DNA of 64,000 nucleotides from Rhodothermia bacterium. Its GTDB lineage: Bacteria > Bacteroidota > Rhodothermia > Rhodothermales > UBA2364. The position numbers were made by a program, and so were the translations under genes. The stretch spans positions 1 to 64,000 of the forward strand of contig JAFLBZ010000006.1 of NCBI GenBank assembly GCA_017303715.1. Direction: 5' to 3'. Below, piece after piece: positions 27,032 through 37,646 of this stretch. Below the pieces are notes generated by a model. The model was given only the letters and a program-made list of their open reading frames with translations, did not search any database and was not told the DNA's origin. Position 1 is the first letter of the stretch, and every line of letters starts with the position of its first letter.

Positions 27032-28846
27032 TTACTCCTGCACTTCAGCGATCCGAATTCCCCAACTGGCGGGCTTATCTGGCGGGTCAAAGGTGAAGTC
27101 ACCAAAGGCATGAATGTTATTGGTTTGGTAATGAACGCGATAATTTCCGGGCTTTAGTACTACTTGTCCATCAAATACGCGGTTCCGGTTGTCGCCACCT
27201 GCCGGTAGGGTTGTACTGGCACGCATGTCCCAGACCTTTCGGCCTTGTTCATCTTCTATCCAGCCATAGTCCAACCAGCGGCCATCGTTTTTTTCGCCCA
27301 TCCCAACAATGCGGAGTACATTTTGCTCCTCTATCAAATTCAAAGGCTCGCTAACCGCTTCTCGGTTTCCGATACGGATGAGGTTCACCAAAACCCGCTC
27401 ATTCTCGGAGAATGCTCCATTACTGGGACGTAAACTTCCGCGCACGTCTTCTATGGCATCCTGCGCACCATCAAGTACTTCTTTGAGAACATCTCCCAAG
27501 CCACCTCGCCCGACGGGTTGCTCTGTGGTGAAAACAGCATTTGGAGAGAGTGAATATACTGAAACGCCCCACCGTTCTTTGTATTCCGGCGGATCTACAT
27601 TCCATTTATTAAAAGAATGGGAACCATCGCTCTTAAACCGCAACTGGTACGTTCCGGCCTCAAGGGTGATAAATCCATCATCTTGGCGGTTTTTAGGATT
27701 TCCTCCAGCTTCTCGTGCCTTGTTCGGGTTCGGCTCCCAGACCACCGTACCATCCTCACGTTCTAACCAGCCTTTGTCAAAGATTTCGTTGTCCGTATAT
27801 TCACCCATCGTATGGATATAAATCCCCGTTTTTTGTTGGAGTGTAAAACGTTGCACAAAGTCGGCATCGTCTCCCGGACGTAAAATCCCCGCAACGAGCG
27901 GATGTTCAAAGGGGCGTAATTCGCCAATATTTGCCTCGTACCCAGCTACGGCTTTAATCACAACGCCCCATCCTGTAGGGTCTAATGGTGGATTATCCGT
28001 CCATTCGTTGTAGCTGTGGGTAAAGTCGGACTCATAAGAGGCTTGATAAATACCCGGTTGGAGCCAAACCTCGCCCTCGAACAGCCTATTTCTAATGCTC
28101 CCTCCCGCTGGCTTGGTATTTTCGAGTGTCATTTTCCAAACAGGTTCGCCAGATTCGAGATTGGTGATTTGGGCAAAGTCCACAAACCTCTCTAAATAGT
28201 CTCCGATGGCCTTAAGGTGGACCCGACTCGGCGCCTTCACCTCAAAGTTATAGCGTTCATTTCGGTAGCTCACCTGCCGGCTTTGATTCCAAATGTCTAA
28301 CCGATTTGGCGCCTCCTCTTGGTATTGCACCAGACGGATATCTGATTCTTGTCCTTTGTGTATGGTTTTGAGAACGAAATACCACCGTTCTGACTCCGAG
28401 AACCAAGCGCGTTCATCGCTTCCGGTGAGTTTCGCCCACAAGGTTCGCTCGCCCACAGGAATTTGGCTGTCCCCATGAGAAGTGTAATAGACCGAATAAA
28501 CCCCTTTAGGTAAGGTAAAGGAGGAGACGGTTCTGCCCAATTGTCCTTGCTCGACCTTTGTGTTATTAGGCGTCATTTGCCAAACCACCGTATGATCTAA
28601 TTGGTTAACAATCCAGCCATAGGTTGCCAAAACGCCGGGTTTTTCAAAAGAGCCTCTGGCATCTATCTGTACTTCTACGGGGCGTGTCACTTCCAAAGTT
28701 TGTTGGTATAGGCGTCCTTTTGGGATGTCTGTCCATACCAAAACACCTTCTTTGTCTGATGTCCCGACGATGCTTTTTAGTAGAACACCAACACCTAAAA
28801 GGGCCAAAACAATCACTAATATCCGGTTAATACGGTTCCTGCTCAT
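27032..28846 (-). CDS. Membrane-anchored protein with four beta-sandwich-like repeats
   Basis: The protein has 604 residues, with one N-terminal membrane segment (about 9-26) and the rest outside. Four related repeats lie at about 46-160, 198-300, 330-432 and 505-604. Their signature is a YGWI/KGWL strand, xxVW, a PAGGxxxNR turn, LxPGxYxxxYxxxxxHSxxxW and WGVxI. The first repeat is the most diverged, and a helical linker (about 445-470) precedes the last. I do not recognise the family. It stands downstream of three genes for another repeat family but is separated from them by a terminator. Confidence 0.7.
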   Translation of the reverse strand: MSRNRINRILVIVLALLGVGVLLKSIVGTSDKEGVLVWTDIPKGRLYQQTLEVTRPVEVQIDARGSFEKPGVLATYGWIVNQLDHTVVWQMTPNNTKVEQGQLGRTVSSFTLPKGVYSVYYTSHGDSQIPVGERTLWAKLTGSDERAWFSESERWYFVLKTIHKGQESDIRLVQYQEEAPNRLDIWNQSRQVSYRNERYNFEVKAPSRVHLKAIGDYLERFVDFAQITNLESGEPVWKMTLENTKPAGGSIRNRLFEGEVWLQPGIYQASYESDFTHSYNEWTDNPPLDPTGWGVVIKAVAGYEANIGELRPFEHPLVAGILRPGDDADFVQRFTLQQKTGIYIHTMGEYTDNEIFDKGWLEREDGTVVWEPNPNKAREAGGNPKNRQDDGFITLEAGTYQLRFKSDGSHSFNKWNVDPPEYKERWGVSVYSLSPNAVFTTEQPVGRGGLGDVLKEVLDGAQDAIEDVRGSLRPSNGAFSENERVLVNLIRIGNREAVSEPLNLIEEQNVLRIVGMGEKNDGRWLDYGWIEDEQGRKVWDMRASTTLPAGGDNRNRVFDGQVVLKPGNYRVHYQTNNIHAFGDFTFDPPDKPASWGIRIAEVQE

Positions 28847-28927: not shown

Positions 28928-28960
28928 AAAAAATAAAACCCCAATGGTTCTCCACTGGGG
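28928..28960 (-). terminator. Terminator ending the repeat-protein operon
   Basis: On the minus strand CCCCA-TGG pairs with CCA-TGGGG around an AGAA loop with one internal mismatch (28939-28960), followed by TTTTATTTTTT. It lies 24 bases after the stop of the seven-repeat gene. Confidence 0.8.
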
Positions 28961-28984
28961 CTAACGTGTCCTTATTGCAAACAC

Positions 28985-31345
28985 TTATTTTTTGTCATTT
29001 TTGGTCATGCGAAACTTTTTTGCTCGGCAAACATCCACGCCGGACTTTTCGTAGGTGGCTTCGATGCCCGTAGCACGTACATCAAAAACACATTCCCCTT
29101 TGAATTTCGACAGGTTCACTTTCCCGTTTGCGCCCATTGCGGCATCCGCATCTTTGGCATTATAGACCTCGGAGAATTTAGGAGAACCTTTGGGACGTAC
29201 CCGAATGGTCATAAGCACATCGCCATTGGTAGCATTTTCAAAAGAAACGGCGTTGTAGTCAAACTGGTCGCTTGGTACTGGTGGTGGAGGTTGTGGTGCA
29301 GGATCGTTGTTTTCTGGCGGACGGCTTCCGGTCAGGGTAAAGCGAACCGTACTGTTCCGGCACAAGTCCACATTGTTGATTCTGGAGATTTCGGAGCGTG
29401 TATCATCAAGGCGCGTACCACGAAGGTCGAATCGGCAATTTCCGGCCTTAAGTCCGGGGATTCTTAGCGTGCCCGTTTCGCCGTCTTGGAAGGTATAGAG
29501 GTCTTCTCCCGCATTTTCAAGCAAGTCTTCACCCCATTCTTGCGTTCCGACTGGGCGGACATTCAAGTAAAAGATGGTTTCGCCCGATGCATTGGTAATG
29601 GTAATCGGGTCTCCATCCACCGCTACAGGTTCGTTTGGCGTAGGTTCAGGGTCGCTATTGCTGTCCTCCGGTGCTGGTGTTACCCCCGGATCAAGGGTGA
29701 AGGTAATGTTGTTGTTTCGGCAGAGGTCAACATTGTTTTTGGTACTCAGAACCTGATTTTCATCCAAACGGGTGGCCTTCAGGTCGAAGCGGCAATTATC
29801 CGATCGTAATCCGGGGATTTTAAGGTCGCCCGTTTCCTGATCTTGGAAGGTATAGAGGTCGTCGCCTGCATCGGCGAGCAAGTCGCGGCTCCACGTTTCG
29901 GCCCCCGACTTGCGGGCATAGAGGTAAAAAATGGTTTCGCCCACTTGATTGGTAATGGTGATGGTGTCGCCGTCTTCGGTAGGCTCATCGGGCGTTTCTG
30001 GCTCATCGGGAGTCGCAGGTGTAACGCCATCATTCAGCGTAAATATAATTTTGGTATTCCGGCATAGATCCACATTGTATTTGGTGGAGAGGATTTCGGA
30101 TTCATTCAGCCGTGTGCCCTTCAGATCAAATTTACAATTACCAGACCCCAGCCCCGGAATCACAAGCGCTCCAGACTCTTCGTTCTGGAAGGTATAGAGT
30201 GCTTCTCCCGCGTTTTCTAAAAGGTCGTTGCCCCAGTCATCGGTTCCGGCCTTACGCGCATAGAGATAAAAAATGGTTTCGCCCGTGTTGTTGGTCACGA
30301 CGATCTGTTCACCATCTGCTGATATGACAGGAGGAGGAATAACCTCTTCGGTTTCTAAAGGTGTTGTACGTTTTTGCAGTTTTGGCGTTCGGCCTGTTTT
30401 GCTGAACGTTACCGTTTCGTTTTCGCAGAGGTCTATTTGCTGGTACGTCTTTATTTCGCCTCGGTCACTTAGCCCTTTTATTTGGACATCAAAGAGGCAA
30501 TTTGAGGTAGAAAGTAATGGGAGTCTTAGGGTATAGCTTTCACCGTCCGAAATGGTGTTGGTCTCACCTTCAAGGTCTAAGAGGTCTGCCCCCCAATCGG
30601 GATCACCTTTGGGACGCGCATAGACATAAAAAATGGTTTCTCCGGTTTTGTTCTCAACTGTAAACTTTGGACCGGAGGCGGTCTCTTCAGGGTTTTCGTT
30701 AAGGTCTATGGCGGTGATGCTAAAGGTGTCGTCCTCGCAAAGGTCTTTATTTTCCCAGATAAAGAGGGTTTTCTCTTCCAAATCGGTTCCTTTGAGGTCA
30801 TAATAACAGCCGCCTTTGAGTGGAATAAAAACTTTCTCGGATTCCTTGCCAGAGATCACTTGTCCTGCATCTAAAACATCCTCACCCCATTCGGATGCTC
30901 CGGTAGGACGGACGAAGAGGTAGAAAATGGATTGATCGGTATCATTGTCAAACGTAATGGTTTTTTTATCGCCACCGTTTTCATCACCAGCATCTGCCTC
31001 AATTTGGTTTTGTGCAGTGATATTAATCGTTTTATTCCGGCAAATATTGTGGCTTTCCACTTGCCACACCTTTTCGCCGCTCAGGTCTGTTGCACGGAAG
31101 GTAAAGGTACATGCGGTATTGTTTGCACCGTCAATTTTTATGGTGAAAGACTTATTGTTCTCCAATACCTGATCGGAGGCCATAAGGTCATCACTCCACT
31201 GGTCTGATCCATCTCCTTGATAACGGAGGTAAAAAATGGTTTCCCCTGTTTTGTTTGTAACAACAGCCGTTTTTTGCGCCAATAGCAATACAGGTGCAAA
31301 AAACAAGAGCAAAAACCAAATGGTGTGGGTTTTAAAACACTTCAT
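28985..31345 (-). CDS. Exported protein with seven two-cysteine GETIFYLY repeats
   Basis: The protein has 786 residues with a signal peptide to about LLLAQ (24). Seven copies of a domain of about 90 residues lie at roughly 27-111, 128-212, 226-316, 347-437, 460-551, 580-672 and 699-781. Each has N-x-TGETIFYLYxRxxG, W-G-x-DLL and two cysteines, e.g. C404/C428, C518/C542 and C637/C662, 21-25 apart in CxFDLxGTxL...VDLCRN. One disulfide per domain is likely. Linkers are acidic and proline-rich. Repeats 4-6 are nearly alike, which points to recent duplication. The last is most diverged. The function is unknown. Confidence 0.8.
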   Translation of the reverse strand: MKCFKTHTIWFLLLFFAPVLLLAQKTAVVTNKTGETIFYLRYQGDGSDQWSDDLMASDQVLENNKSFTIKIDGANNTACTFTFRATDLSGEKVWQVESHNICRNKTINITAQNQIEADAGDENGGDKKTITFDNDTDQSIFYLFVRPTGASEWGEDVLDAGQVISGKESEKVFIPLKGGCYYDLKGTDLEEKTLFIWENKDLCEDDTFSITAIDLNENPEETASGPKFTVENKTGETIFYVYARPKGDPDWGADLLDLEGETNTISDGESYTLRLPLLSTSNCLFDVQIKGLSDRGEIKTYQQIDLCENETVTFSKTGRTPKLQKRTTPLETEEVIPPPVISADGEQIVVTNNTGETIFYLYARKAGTDDWGNDLLENAGEALYTFQNEESGALVIPGLGSGNCKFDLKGTRLNESEILSTKYNVDLCRNTKIIFTLNDGVTPATPDEPETPDEPTEDGDTITITNQVGETIFYLYARKSGAETWSRDLLADAGDDLYTFQDQETGDLKIPGLRSDNCRFDLKATRLDENQVLSTKNNVDLCRNNNITFTLDPGVTPAPEDSNSDPEPTPNEPVAVDGDPITITNASGETIFYLNVRPVGTQEWGEDLLENAGEDLYTFQDGETGTLRIPGLKAGNCRFDLRGTRLDDTRSEISRINNVDLCRNSTVRFTLTGSRPPENNDPAPQPPPPVPSDQFDYNAVSFENATNGDVLMTIRVRPKGSPKFSEVYNAKDADAAMGANGKVNLSKFKGECVFDVRATGIEATYEKSGVDVCRAKKFRMTKNDKK

Positions 31346-31407
31346 AAGAGTCCTTTTTGCAAAATGATATTCTGTTATATTACGGTTATGTACAACCGAA
31401 ACGAAGG

Positions 31408-32709
31408 CTATTTCCGAAAAGTCACAGAGGAATTACGGCACAAGTCAACATTGGTTAACGTCTTCAGAACCTTGGTTTTCTCCAATGCTGTTGCCTTGAA
31501 GTCGAATTTACACGTTGAGCGGCTAAACCCGGGAATATTCAATGAACCCGTTTCGCCGTTTTGGAAGGTGTAAAGGGTTTCGCCCGCACCTGCCAATAGG
31601 TCTTCGCCCCAATCACTCGAACCGGATTTGCGGACAAAGAGGTAGAAGATGGTTTCGCCGATCTGGTTGCTCACATTGATGGCATTTCCGCTGTTACTGT
31701 CTTGATTGTCATTGTTCTCGCTATTGTCTTTAAGAACCAAATCGATGTTGTTCATCGTACATAAATCAACATTGCGAGCGTCCACCAAAACCTTTGTTTG
31801 GTCTAAGGCCGTGGCTTTGATGTCGAATTTGCAGTTGTTACGGCTGAGGCCCGGAATCCGGAGTTGGCCACTTTCGCCATCTTGGAAGGTATAAAGTTCT
31901 TGGCCGGCCGTCTTTAACAAGTCATTCCCCCAATCATTGCTCCCACTTTTTCGGGTATAAAGATAAAATACGGTTTCGCCCAATTTATTCGAAACGGTGA
32001 TGGTTCCCGTTACGTTCTGTGCAGCGTTGTTGGTATTTTGGGCATTTCCTTTTCTAAAAGTCACGGACGGATTATTACACAAATCCACATTACTAACTGT
32101 TGAAAGTACGTTAGACTCGTCTAAGGCTGTGGCCTTAAAGTCAAATCGGCAAGTTCCGTCGCCCAAGCCCGGAATCGCCAAGTCTCCCGTTTCACCGTCT
32201 TGAAAAGTGTAGAGATCTTGACCCGCACCCGCCAAAAGATCACCACTCCATTGACCAGAGCCACTTGGCCGGACGTAGAGGTAAAAAATCGTTTCTCCTA
32301 CGCCATTTGTCACTTGGATGCTATTGCCAGAAGTGGTGTCTTGTTCGGGGGCAGCATCGCTAAAATTAGACTCATCGAAGGTGAAAACCCGTGTTTTACA
32401 TACGTCGGCATCTTCGATGATCCACTCTAACCCAATTTCATCAAACGAGGTCGCAAAAAGATCAAAATTACAATTATCAGGCCCGGCATCTGGAATGGTA
32501 ATCTTGATTTGATCACCATCCGCAAGGGCTTCAGTTTTCATCAGGGTTTCGCTCCAATCTACCGTTCCACGCTGTCGAGCAGACACCTCATTAATTTCAT
32601 AACCTGTATCGTTTTTGATGGTTATTGTGCGTGCTGGCAATACAGGATTTGCTTGAAGCAGGGTCATACTCGCGGTAAAGAGTAGAAAGATGGTAATAAG
32701 ATGTTTCAT
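31408..32709 (-). CDS. Exported protein with four two-cysteine GETIFYLY repeats
   Basis: The protein has 433 residues with a signal peptide (to about LLQAN). Four copies of the same domain as in its neighbours lie at about 27-112, 130-219, 236-327 and 343-433, with cysteine pairs C80/C104, C187/C211, C293/C317 and C400/C424. Copies 2-4 share the GETIFYLYxR, DLYTFQDGETG, IPGL and CxFDxKATALD stretches; copy 1 is older. Linkers are rich in asparagine. It ends right after the last domain, without a sorting domain. It is in the same direction as its paralogues, with gaps of 62 and 166 bp. Confidence 0.8.
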   Translation of the reverse strand: MKHLITIFLLFTASMTLLQANPVLPARTITIKNDTGYEINEVSARQRGTVDWSETLMKTEALADGDQIKITIPDAGPDNCNFDLFATSFDEIGLEWIIEDADVCKTRVFTFDESNFSDAAPEQDTTSGNSIQVTNGVGETIFYLYVRPSGSGQWSGDLLAGAGQDLYTFQDGETGDLAIPGLGDGTCRFDFKATALDESNVLSTVSNVDLCNNPSVTFRKGNAQNTNNAAQNVTGTITVSNKLGETVFYLYTRKSGSNDWGNDLLKTAGQELYTFQDGESGQLRIPGLSRNNCKFDIKATALDQTKVLVDARNVDLCTMNNIDLVLKDNSENNDNQDSNSGNAINVSNQIGETIFYLFVRKSGSSDWGEDLLAGAGETLYTFQNGETGSLNIPGFSRSTCKFDFKATALEKTKVLKTLTNVDLCRNSSVTFRK

Positions 32710-32875
32710 TGTGGTTTTGTGGGTTGTGGTTTACGGAAAGTGGGTGAGGTGCAATACAAAAACGCCAATACTTAAGTACGTTTATTATAACGTCAGTTCT
32801 AAAGTACTTTTATTAAACGACTTTTGGCGAAAGGTTGTTGTACGGATTTCTAAAACTGTACACCATCCCGATAAT

Positions 32876-34192
32876 TTATTTAATCTGGACAGTTTTTTCG
32901 GCACATAAGTCCACACCTTTCATAAAGAACACTTCTTGGTCTTTAAGGTCTAACCCTCGAATATCAAAGCGACATGAGTCCGCAAGAAGTTCTGGCAGAA
33001 CGATTTCCACCATTTCTCGTGGGGACAAGGCATTGTCTTCGGCAAGACGGTCACTTCCCCAAAGGCCATTGTCGTCCCCGCTGGGCCGAATATGGAGGTA
33101 AAAAACGGTTTTCCGCAACCGATTCTCGAACGATATTTTGGTGGCGGCATCAGGCTCTGGGTCAATTGGAAAAACCACACTTACCTCTGACGCATCATAC
33201 ATTTCCTCGGTGATTCTCAACTCCTTCTGGGTACAAAGATCAATGTCGCGAATGAGCCATACTGCACTGGCATCCATGTTGGTCGCTTTTACATCGAACC
33301 GGCAGGCGTTGTCCGGTGGTAATGGAACTTCAACCGTTTGGGATTCTCCTTCCACCACAAACTCTTGAGCGCCTAAAAGGTCTATGCTCCATTCTTCACC
33401 CTCCCGTGCAACGCGAGAAAATAAAAAATGTATGGTCTCCTTAACATCGTTAAAGACTTGAACGGGCGTGGTTGCGGTGTCGTCATCTAAGGATAGCGCA
33501 TTAAGGCTTGCCTCCCCCATATCGTCCAAAGTAAGCACAATTTCCTTGTTTATGCAAAGATTTTGGTTAATTAGCGTGTATATATCCCCGTCCTCATCCA
33601 ATGCCCGTACATTGTAAAGACAACCCTTTCCGGCGGAAAGGTCAAAGCTCCGGTCTCGATCTGTATTCATGGTCTCGTCTCCCAGCCGATCTTCGCCCCA
33701 ACCGTCAGTTCCTTGATAAATATAAACCTCTTCCAAGGTAAATCCTGTTCGGTTTAGGAAACTGACCTCGCCCGGGCTTTGTATAGTCTCAGGTTCAGAC
33801 AAAATCGGTTCGGAAGTGATGGAGACCTCGACTTGTGCAAGGTTGCCCAAACCTCTTTCGTGGTTTTTATTGATTTCAACTTCGGCATTTTCACAAATAT
33901 CCACAGCCCATAATTGAAAAGTGTTTGATTTTGCCGTTTCGGCGAGGATATCCACCATACATATATTGCTTGGTTGCTCGACTTTAATCGTGATACGTTT
34001 CCCATGGGGCAAGTGTCCACTACTAAGTTTATTGGCTCCCCAAACGACATCTGGTGCAGAGACAAACAATGAGGTCAGGTCTCCTCCGGTTGCGTTAAGT
34101 ATGGAAAGGGATTTATTTGTGGTTCCTTGGCTTTTTGCTATAGATGGGGTAATGGCCATCAGCATGATCAAGAAAAAGAGACGTTCTTTCAT
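32876..34192 (-). CDS. Exported protein with four diverged two-cysteine repeats
   Basis: The start at ATG 34192 gives a signal peptide (MKERLFFLIMLMAITPSIAKS) and 438 residues; an open extension to 34252 is disregarded because the ATG overlaps the TGA of the upstream ORF as ATGA. Four domains of the neighbouring family are present but more diverged, as in FLNRTGFTLEEVYIYQG...GWGEDRL and FENRLRKTVFYLHIRPSG...LWGSDRL, each with the CxxDxxA / DLC cysteine pair. It is probably the founder-like member of the operon. The role is unknown. Confidence 0.78.
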   Translation of the reverse strand: MKERLFFLIMLMAITPSIAKSQGTTNKSLSILNATGGDLTSLFVSAPDVVWGANKLSSGHLPHGKRITIKVEQPSNICMVDILAETAKSNTFQLWAVDICENAEVEINKNHERGLGNLAQVEVSITSEPILSEPETIQSPGEVSFLNRTGFTLEEVYIYQGTDGWGEDRLGDETMNTDRDRSFDLSAGKGCLYNVRALDEDGDIYTLINQNLCINKEIVLTLDDMGEASLNALSLDDDTATTPVQVFNDVKETIHFLFSRVAREGEEWSIDLLGAQEFVVEGESQTVEVPLPPDNACRFDVKATNMDASAVWLIRDIDLCTQKELRITEEMYDASEVSVVFPIDPEPDAATKISFENRLRKTVFYLHIRPSGDDNGLWGSDRLAEDNALSPREMVEIVLPELLADSCRFDIRGLDLKDQEVFFMKGVDLCAEKTVQIK

Positions 34193-34383
34193 GGGGAGAT
34201 TTTTTTGCCGATTTCGGCACGATGAACAGGATTTTCTGGCGGAATAACACACGCACGAGTTTGAAAGGGGTTCTTGGTTGCTCGACTAAGGTGCAATGTG
34301 CGAATAATACGGATAACCATTTCATAAGTAAAGGGTTGGTTCAAGGATTCTTCAAGCGACTGGCACAAACTTTTCGGTGTCAT
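34189..34383 (-). CDS. Small ORF coupled to the repeat-protein operon
   Basis: This ATG-initiated 64-residue ORF (MTPKSLCQSLEESLN ... AEIGKKISP) ends in a TGA that overlaps the ATG of the next gene as ATGA, the classic arrangement for translational coupling. There is no signal peptide or membrane segment, and the first half looks helical. It is not recognised. It may be a regulatory leader peptide or a small cytoplasmic protein. The coupling is the main support; the composition alone would not be. Confidence 0.45.
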   Translation of the reverse strand: MTPKSLCQSLEESLNQPFTYEMVIRIIRTLHLSRATKNPFQTRACVIPPENPVHRAEIGKKISP

Positions 34384-34663
34384 GTCAGTTTTTTTTTTGT
34401 TTTAATCCCATTTCTAACCGATATTATGTGTTTATTGGGTAATGGTTTTGTTTACTCGCGAGGGACACCCCCTACTGGCAAGGTGCGTCTAAACGGAAAC
34501 CCATCCCACAGCGTCATGACACTACGTGTTCATGGCGCTTTTTGTATTATCCCCTATAAATAATTGACACAGCTTCTGTTTGGGATTCCGACCATTGGGT
34601 TTGTATTATAACGTTATTATTTTAGGGTCATAAGACCTCATTAATCATGTATTTTTGCCCTTT
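34384..34663. other. Divergent intergenic region with an orphan plus-strand terminator
   Basis: No protein gene is visible. It contains a CTCGCGAG palindrome near 34455, a hairpin-forming stretch at about 34463-34492 and a terminator-like hairpin at 34510-34543. The palindrome ATAACGTTAT lies near 34610. TATTTTTG at 34650-34657 fits the -7 box TAnnTTTG only seven bases ahead of the amidase ATG, so that mRNA may be leaderless. Confidence 0.45.
34510..34543 (+). terminator. Orphan plus-strand terminator-like hairpin
   Basis: AGCGTCATGACAC (34510-34522) pairs with GTGTTCATGGCGCT (34526-34539) with one mismatch and one bulge, and TTTTT follows. No plus-strand gene lies upstream within the intergenic region, so it may end a small RNA that starts after about 34400. 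Confidence 0.6.
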
Positions 34664-35857
34664 ATGAATCGTCTTGCTTGGTTGTTGTTTTTTTGGTTGG
34701 GTTACGGAGTACCCCTTTCTGCACAAAGTTATGTTACGGCATTGCCACACGAAAGTGAAGGCATTATGGGGATGTTGCGTCGGTTCGAGTTACCCACAAC
34801 ACCAGAAATGGTTACACAATTCCGAAAGCTCAATAACCTAAAACCAAACGAAGGCGTCAAGATTGACAAAACCTACCGAATGCCTGTCCGACGGTATCGG
34901 TATAACCAAAAAAGTATCCGAACCACCTTAGGGATCACAGACTACAACCGAGCGCAGCGCATTGCCGATTACAACAACCGGATGACGGCAGAGGGTGTTC
35001 GTGAAGATGACTTCCTAACGTCGCTTTCGCTTTGGGTTCCGATACACGAGGCAAAAAACTTACGGCCTGCAACGACCGAACCAGAGATACGCATCCCACA
35101 GACGGCTTCCCCTCGTATTCAAGGCAATACGGCAAATTGGCCCATTTTCGGAAGCAAATATGCCGTCGTAAAGCGGAAAAATACACGCCTCGCTGGACGG
35201 GTGTACTATATAGATGCCGGACACGGCGGGCCAGATCCCGGAGCAACGGCTAAATTAGCAGACTTTGCAATGTATGAGGACGAATATGCCTACGATATTG
35301 CCCTGCGTTTGGCACGAAACCTCTTGCAACATGGAGCAAAGGTGTATCTCATCGTGCAAGACCCTAATGACGGTATCCGAGACGGTGCTTTTTTGACGCC
35401 AGATAAACATGAGGTTTTTCTAGGAAATGTAGAAATGGTAAACAATTTTGCAGATAGACTCCGCCAACGATCTGGAATTGTGAATGCGCTTTTCGAGCAG
35501 AATCCACAGGCAACCGCCCACCGCTTAATCTCTATCCACGTAGATTCACGTCAACTCAAGGACGTACCACAACCGATGGATCCGCACTTTTCTTATTTTT
35601 CCAGTAGTGATGAAGGGGCACGGCTTGCGAGAATCCTCTTTGAGGCCATGAAGCCGTATTATTCCACACAAGGCCGCACGTTTACCGGAACCATCGCCAC
35701 ACGAGACCAACTGCATATGTTGCTTTATCCCAAACCGATAGCCATCCTTGTTGAAACTGCCAATATCCAACATCCCGAAGATCAAGCCCGCCTCATGAAG
35801 TCGTCGTATCGTCAAGCTATTGCAGACCGACTTACCCTTGGGCTTTTGCAAGAATAA
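34664..35857 (+). CDS. N-acetylmuramoyl-L-alanine amidase (Amidase_3)
   Basis: Starting at ATG 34664 (a TTG nine bases upstream also opens the frame) gives 397 residues with a signal peptide (MNRLAWLLFFWLGYGVPLSAQ). Zinc amidase motifs are present in the C-terminal half: YIDAGHGGPDPGA, the ligand E in YEDEYAY, LISIHVDS and the catalytic glutamate in ILVETANIQ. The N-terminal third is not a recognised targeting domain. It cleaves the bond between muramic acid and stem peptide, probably in cell separation. Confidence 0.88.
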   Translation: MNRLAWLLFFWLGYGVPLSAQSYVTALPHESEGIMGMLRRFELPTTPEMVTQFRKLNNLKPNEGVKIDKTYRMPVRRYRYNQKSIRTTLGITDYNRAQRIADYNNRMTAEGVREDDFLTSLSLWVPIHEAKNLRPATTEPEIRIPQTASPRIQGNTANWPIFGSKYAVVKRKNTRLAGRVYYIDAGHGGPDPGATAKLADFAMYEDEYAYDIALRLARNLLQHGAKVYLIVQDPNDGIRDGAFLTPDKHEVFLGNVEMVNNFADRLRQRSGIVNALFEQNPQATAHRLISIHVDSRQLKDVPQPMDPHFSYFSSSDEGARLARILFEAMKPYYSTQGRTFTGTIATRDQLHMLLYPKPIAILVETANIQHPEDQARLMKSSYRQAIADRLTLGLLQE

Positions 35858-35927: not shown

Positions 35928-37646
35928 ATGGCTTTATTTGTAGATCAGAAATTTCAGGCGTATCGCACACATATAGAAGAAATCGTAAAAGACCTCCACA
36001 ACCTTGCTTCGGAAGTGGGTTATCAAGAGTTACGTCAAACCGTAAGCGACCTCCGGAATCGGATCCACGAACCTTTCATGTTTGTAATCGTGGGCGAAGT
36101 CAAAGCCGGTAAAAGTAGTTTTATCAATGCTTTATTGGAAGCAAAAAAAGACATCTGCAAAGTTGCTCCAGCACCTTGTACCGATACCGTCCAACAAATC
36201 TTGTATGGTGAACATCAAGAAGTCGTGGTGGTAAATGAACACCTGAAAAAAATCTTTACACCAGAACCCATTCTACAGGAAATTGCGATTGTGGATACGC
36301 CCGGAACCAATACCATTGTGGCGCATCACCAAGAAATTACGGAACGTTTTATTCCAGCCTCCGATCTTATTGTCTTTGTATTTGAGTCAAAAAACCCGTA
36401 CCGACAATCTGCATGGGACTTCTTTGATTATATCCACAGCGATTGGCGGAAAAAAATCATCTTCGTCCTCCAACAAAAAGACCTGCTAAGTGCAGAGGAT
36501 TTGGCCATTAACAAACAGGGTGTCATTGATTTTGCCCTCAAAAAAGGGATTAAAAATCCGGTGGTTTTTACGGCTTCTGCCAAAATGGAACAAGAAGGGA
36601 AAGCCGAAGAAAGTGGTTTTACCGAAATTAGGGCCTATATCCGTGAAAATATTACGGGAGGAAAAGCACCCTATCTAAAACTCAGAAACAACATAAGCAC
36701 CTCCCAAAACATCAACGATAAACTTGCTGCGGCCTTAGACATCCGCGTAAAACAATATGAGGCCGACGTCGCTTTCCGCGAAGACATCAAAGAAACGTTG
36801 GATAGCCAAACACGGAAATCAGGAAAACAAGTTACGATCTTGGTGGAAAACTTGGTCGCCGGATACGACAACATCACACGGCGCGTAGAGCAAGAATTGG
36901 AAGAAGGGCTTTCGTTCTTTACCCTGCTAAAACGTTCTGTGTCCTCCATTTTCGATTCGGATGCTTCGCCACAGGCATGGATTAAGCACATCAGTCGCAA
37001 TTTTGAGCAGGACCTTCAAGCCGAAATGCGCCGTAAATTGGAGGAAGGCGTAGGCGATATTGCCGACCAAATCCAAACCATGGCGCGGTTGGTGGACATG
37101 AAAATCAAGAACAGCCAAACCGTCCTGAAAAACAACCACGAAATTTTTAGTGATATTGCCGAACGGCGTAGTACCGTATTGGCAGACCTCCAAAGCACGT
37201 TTACCACCTTTCTTAGCCGCTCCGAGAACTTTCGTGCCGATGGTCTTAGCGACCAAAATGCTTCTTTTTCCCCCAATATTGCTACCGGAAGCGGCTTGGC
37301 CATCATCGGTGTAATTCTCGCAACCGTCACTCAAGGCGCTGTTTTGGACATTACAGGCGGTTTATTGACCACCATGGGCTTGCTCTTCGCAGGCGTTACA
37401 GTGGGACTAAAACGCAAGCGGATCATGGACGAGTTCCGAAACGAGGTAGCACAAGGACGAACACAATTGGAAAAAGAGGTGCTTCAACGGCTTAGTTCGT
37501 ACATCACTACACTCAAAAATCGGATTGATGCAAATTTTAACGACTTCGATGCCTTGCTTGAACAAGAAGGGCGCTCCCTTGCGCTTTTCACGACGAGACA
37601 ACAAAACATCAAAAACCGATTGGAGGCATTAGACAAATCTTTTTAG
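35928..37646 (+). CDS. Dynamin-like GTPase
   Basis: The protein has 572 residues. The GTPase domain has the P-loop GEVKAGKS at 56-63, the switch threonine in CTDTVQQ, DTPGTN at 123-128 and QQKD in place of the G4 NKxD motif. A long helical region follows, with a hydrophobic hairpin at about 445-490 (GLAIIGVILATVTQGAVLDITGGLLTTM split by a turn) that could insert into membrane, and a coiled coil at the end. This is the layout of bacterial dynamin-like proteins that remodel membranes. It stands alone rather than as the usual tandem pair. Confidence 0.85.
   Translation: MALFVDQKFQAYRTHIEEIVKDLHNLASEVGYQELRQTVSDLRNRIHEPFMFVIVGEVKAGKSSFINALLEAKKDICKVAPAPCTDTVQQILYGEHQEVVVVNEHLKKIFTPEPILQEIAIVDTPGTNTIVAHHQEITERFIPASDLIVFVFESKNPYRQSAWDFFDYIHSDWRKKIIFVLQQKDLLSAEDLAINKQGVIDFALKKGIKNPVVFTASAKMEQEGKAEESGFTEIRAYIRENITGGKAPYLKLRNNISTSQNINDKLAAALDIRVKQYEADVAFREDIKETLDSQTRKSGKQVTILVENLVAGYDNITRRVEQELEEGLSFFTLLKRSVSSIFDSDASPQAWIKHISRNFEQDLQAEMRRKLEEGVGDIADQIQTMARLVDMKIKNSQTVLKNNHEIFSDIAERRSTVLADLQSTFTTFLSRSENFRADGLSDQNASFSPNIATGSGLAIIGVILATVTQGAVLDITGGLLTTMGLLFAGVTVGLKRKRIMDEFRNEVAQGRTQLEKEVLQRLSSYITTLKNRIDANFNDFDALLEQEGRSLALFTTRQQNIKNRLEALDKSF

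Follow-up and report, generated by a model that had tools for sequence, protein, structure and literature searches.

Exported arrays of an uncatalogued two-cysteine domain encoded by three adjacent genes of a Rhodothermia bacterium, with a possible role in multivalent binding

The window analyzed here, a stretch of 64,000 nucleotides from a Rhodothermia bacterium (Bacteroidota), contains three adjacent genes, designated C, B and A, whose products carry repeated copies of a single domain, which raises the question of what these proteins do and whether they belong to an already known system. The genes are co-directional on the minus strand and encode four, four and seven copies, respectively. 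Their coordinates on the window are given below, the domains having been delimited by profile search and the signal peptides by eye.

32876..34192, minus strand: gene C, 438 aa, 4 domains, first gene of the unit
34127..34192, minus strand: signal peptide of C, about residues 1-22, hydrophobic, ending ...SIAKSQ, without a lipobox cysteine
33863-34114, minus strand: domain C1
33524-33772, minus strand: domain C2
33203-33469, minus strand: domain C3
32879-33142, minus strand: domain C4
31408..32709, minus strand: gene B, 433 aa, 4 domains
32650..32709, minus strand: signal peptide of B, about residues 1-20, ...TLLQA/NP (slash, putative cleavage position)
32368-32631, minus strand: domain B1
32041-32325, minus strand: domain B2
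31729-32007, minus strand: domain B3
31411-31686, minus strand: domain B4
28985..31345, minus strand: gene A, 786 aa, 7 domains, with acidic and Pro-rich linkers between A3 and A7
31274..31345, minus strand: signal peptide of A, about residues 1-24, ...LLLAQ/K
31010-31270, minus strand: domain A1
30707-30964, minus strand: domain A2
30395-30670, minus strand: domain A3
30032-30310, minus strand: domain A4
29690-29968, minus strand: domain A5
29330-29611, minus strand: domain A6
28997-29254, minus strand: domain A7
28937..28962, minus strand: terminator-like hairpin 3' of gene A, 11-pair stem and T-rich tail

The intergenic gaps amount to 166 bases between C and B and 62 bases between B and A. 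Gene C starts at about position 34192 (ATG), or at most at 34252 (GTG), so that the end coordinate of 34383 proposed in the earlier note was too far. The hairpin lies 23 bases beyond the stop of A and is the top-scoring terminator-like site of a region in which such sites overall are no more frequent than in shuffles. The gene at 27032-28846 was considered as a fourth member of the unit and rejected, since it encodes a different protein that 53 of 60 relatives in the order share, with or without arrays, and is also separated from A by the hairpin. The product of this conserved single-copy gene, on the minus strand, has 604 aa and combines repeated units of about 120 residues (AGGxxxNR...G.Y...W...WG) with a membrane segment at the N-terminus; it gave no convincing match in Pfam or NCBIfam.

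On the other side of the unit, a non-coding element (34434-34545, plus strand) lies between gene C and a divergent gene (34655-35857) whose product is N-acetylmuramoyl-L-alanine amidase-like by motif. An 82-base portion of the element matches the two other species of the genus at 94-95% identity, although the flanking sequences differ; its folding z is -3.5 against shuffles, and it ends with a terminator-like hairpin and a T run. It matches no Rfam family at cut-off, and 57 further genomes of the order lack it. It may be a leader or an unannotated small RNA that perhaps resembles 6S RNA, and is not counted as part of the array unit. Directly after the amidase-like gene, positions 35928-37646 (plus strand) encode an apparently dynamin-like protein of 572 aa with the GTPase motif GEVKAGKSS.

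The 15 copies of the domain are 83-95 residues long, and every one of them contains exactly two cysteines, 21-25 residues apart. The mature A, B and C proteins have no cysteine outside the domains, the only extra one being located in the signal peptide of A. Residue N7 and both cysteines never vary among the 15 copies, of which 14 also have W26. Profiles built from two of the genes recovered all copies in the remaining gene, with C1 weak at E 0.0035 and the others at E 2.5e-6 or lower; the A+B profile, for instance, retrieved the four copies of C at E 0.0035, 9e-7, 2e-15 and 6e-18. Besides, a profile of nine single-domain proteins from other genomes matched all 15 copies at E 6e-5 to 4e-15, whereas its lowest E against 600 shuffled proteins was 1.1. 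Because the copies are recovered across genes and shuffled proteins give E values of at least 1.1, the homology of the repeats is far above chance. The description of the locus as three adjacent genes for exported proteins with 7, 4 and 4 two-cysteine domains and a cysteine spacing of 21-25 is confirmed. The motifs TGETIFYLY and WGxDLL, initially proposed as marks of the domain, hold for a core subset but not for A7, B1, C1 and C2, which diverge.

The earlier note had also described repeats 4-6 of A as nearly identical, and the array as being expanded. Instead, their pairwise identity is 60-63% at the protein level and 63-65% at the DNA level. The 7/4/4 layout is common to all three species examined in the genus, and in a tree of the 45 repeats of these species the clustering is by position and not by species, the three C3 rows standing at an open long-branch fork with no drawn clade. 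In pairwise identity, all repeats, those of C3 among them, are nearest to their own orthologues and never to a paralogue. The 15 positions thus match one-to-one in the three species, which contradicts an ongoing expansion, and recent duplication as the source of the repeats is ruled out by both the DNA identity and the repeat tree. Given this position-wise orthology, duplication was over before the genus diversified. Judged from the sequences, the arrays are under purifying selection: between the two closest species, dN/dS is 0.13 for A, 0.08 for B and 0.21 for C, against 0.04-0.09 for neighbouring genes. Gene C evolves the fastest of the three and is 50-52% identical between this species and the other two.

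A confident fold was predicted for the domain. Using 30 repeats, AlphaFold2 returned a six-strand beta-sandwich with a mean pLDDT of 92.8 and a pTM of 0.83. In this model, C59 is located just before strand 60-66 and C83 just after strand 73-81; since the two cysteines flank these strands, a disulfide pinning the hairpin would be expected. The domains are joined by linkers in which P, E, D, T, N and S are abundant. A model of the whole B protein, based on two sequences only, displayed four beta-domains connected by linkers of pLDDT below 50, with a low overall confidence (pLDDT 64, pTM 0.28).

Outside the arrays, the domain occurs in single copy. Secreted single-domain proteins of about 120 residues were found in nine other genomes of a 394-genome Bacteroidota sample, to which a broader profile added two more, and on alphaproteobacterial plasmids of Sulfitobacter, Mesorhizobium and Shinella. 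Within the order, single copies were detected outside the genus in five genomes, all five being lipoprotein-like; several of these versions have their cysteines elsewhere (SxCSS and GCWD), which suggests a rearranged disulfide. In Clostridia, a Subdoligranulum plasmid encodes (2842-3714) a 290-aa lipoprotein carrying the domain, with one copy lacking the usual cysteine pair and an apparent diverged second copy. In addition, an exported paralogue with one domain N-terminal to a CAP domain is present in all three species of the genus (in this genome on contig C16, near 74.5 kb). The suspicion that a similar single domain occurs in scattered hypothetical proteins is hence confirmed, in Bacteroidota, alphaproteobacterial plasmids and a Clostridia plasmid. 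The phage collection gave no match to the domain, and a single 13-residue match in a scan of viral contigs was judged to be chance. The genes neighbouring the single-domain relatives are unrelated housekeeping genes with none in common, so that genomic context is uninformative on function. Arrays were sought beyond the lineage, as had been suggested, but a sample of 114 genomes from the order and 394 from the phylum contained none outside the genus. As non-Bacteroidota were sampled only through plasmid and phage collections, this one-genus restriction holds for the sampled Bacteroidota only.

From these results, we infer that A, B and C are flexible proteins that bind multivalently outside the cytoplasm, a reading to which we assign a probability of about one in two. 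After export, each domain would close one internal disulfide that fastens the hairpin of strands 60-66 and 73-81 at its base. The domain would work as a binding module outside the cytoplasm, as suggested by its occurrence also as a stand-alone secreted protein, as a lipoprotein and as an accessory on a CAP protein. With four or seven diverged copies in a chain, a ligand at the envelope or beyond it would be bound with avidity, and the copies might also differ in specificity. This proposal is favoured by the two-cysteine copies, the confident beta-sandwich, the flexible-looking linkers, the position-specific orthology and the dN/dS of 0.08-0.21, as well as by the stand-alone secreted or lipoprotein relatives and the CAP fusion in three species. 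Against it stand the lack of an anchor or sorting domain, the low-confidence four-bead model and the uninformative neighbours of the relatives. From the beads-on-a-string layout, an adhesive or structural role would be plausible. A broader and tentative proposal, which we consider doubtful, is that the domain represents a widespread uncatalogued disulfide beta-sandwich from which one Rhodothermales-like genus would have built a three-protein multivalent system, with its own ligand for each bead position. As the domain recurs in secreted form in Bacteroidota, Alphaproteobacteria and Clostridia, a model of it would allow many exported proteins now listed as hypothetical to be annotated, and the up to seven natural variants per chain in three species are useful for locating the ligand surface.

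The place where the proteins reside bears on another explanation. The N-termini of A, B and C, judged by eye, resemble Sec signal peptides without a lipobox, and searches of Pfam and NCBIfam revealed no cell-surface anchor and no T9SS or other C-terminal sorting domain in the three proteins, which may therefore remain periplasmic or be released. This absence would suit a periplasmic or outer-envelope scaffolding, in which disulfide-hardened spacers bridge or coat the envelope with no outside ligand, and so would the age and position conservation of the arrays and the divergent amidase-like neighbour, whose place is kept in three species. However, most relatives consist of one short domain and would be too small as spacers, the linkers appear flexible and not rigid, and gene C changes faster than the neighbouring genes, which is unusual in a scaffold. 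Such a scaffolding role is rather unlikely.

By analogy with other small disulfide beta proteins, the arrays might also be multi-headed secreted inhibitors, each bead blocking one protease or glycosidase, and a small secreted two-cysteine domain found both singly and in tandem is in line with this idea. A similarity to the protease inhibitor Inh (PF02974) was indeed detected, below threshold (E 0.0024, 18.3 bits against a gathering cut-off of 25), but it spans just 24 residues and is not reproduced with any single domain, for which reason this family was rejected. Moreover, no reactive loop was identified and no enzyme gene adjoins the unit. Inhibition is improbable.

The predicted fold was also compared with known structures. 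Foldseek gave no match at E <= 0.001 against PDB and BFVD, and the best VIA-align Z of 6.7 was spread over unrelated proteins (HGSNAT luminal domain and a DUF4876 protein, 6.7 each), with further matches to cytolysin domain 4 and transthyretin-like domains, values of Z below 8 possibly reflecting only a common arrangement. Through a faint likeness of the predicted fold to an aegerolysin (Foldseek E 0.36) and to domain 4 of many cholesterol-dependent cytolysins (Z 4.7-6.4 over about 82 residues, rmsd about 4), the domains might be lipid- or membrane-binding modules, in a role of binding only; nothing in A, B and C points to pore formation. Unrelated chains score equally high (Z 6.7), and no sequence similarity was found. 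This reading is very improbable.

Of these readings, multivalent binding is the preferred one. The arrays were further compared with known proteins. Profile searches of Pfam, NCBIfam and PHROGs found no family covering the domain, in agreement with the earlier note, which could not name one, and literature searches returned nothing on it. The embryo-specific protein 3 family ATS3 (PF06232) exceeded its gathering cut-off of 27 in whole-protein scores (33.7 for A, 33.1 for B). Nevertheless, of the 125 positions of the model its best stretches cover only 28 and 56, and these do not follow the repeat boundaries, the alignment in B beginning in the final residues of one domain and crossing the linker into the next; besides, it matches none of 19 single domains and no single-domain relative. 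Because this similarity is partial, out of register and never found on a single domain, it was attributed to chance summed over the repeats and rejected.

The closest counterparts are the unnamed proteins of about 120 aa that carry the same domain by profile, such as WP_317406412.1 (Sulfitobacter dubius) and WP_258581068.1 (Mesorhizobium sp. AR10). They share with the arrays the N-x-T/S-G start, W-G-x-D, the cysteine pair about 22 residues apart and C-x-x-D, and A, B and C group with this single-domain family by whole-domain profile match together with an export signal (by eye) and cysteines about 22 apart. Unlike the arrays, these relatives have one copy each, without linkers, and some lipoprotein versions relocate the cysteine pair. 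The CAP/SCP protein of the genus likewise contains the domain, is exported and is encoded in the same genomes as the arrays, but the domain is there in single copy, fused to CAP (PF00188, E 2e-22), and the gene occupies another genomic place. Tandem arrays of Ig-, FnIII- or CBM-like beta-sandwich domains are a familiar architecture of bacterial extracellular proteins. Such proteins are likewise exported strings of small beta-sandwich beads with flexible linkers, although they have no sequence family in common with A, B and C; in a profile search of PDB, the best FnIII chain was unconvincing (E 0.009). Since bead arrays of this kind are already familiar, the locus is not rated as a new system. 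On the basis of the sequence comparisons, the domain is uncatalogued in the searched libraries and has been locally elaborated into the arrays.
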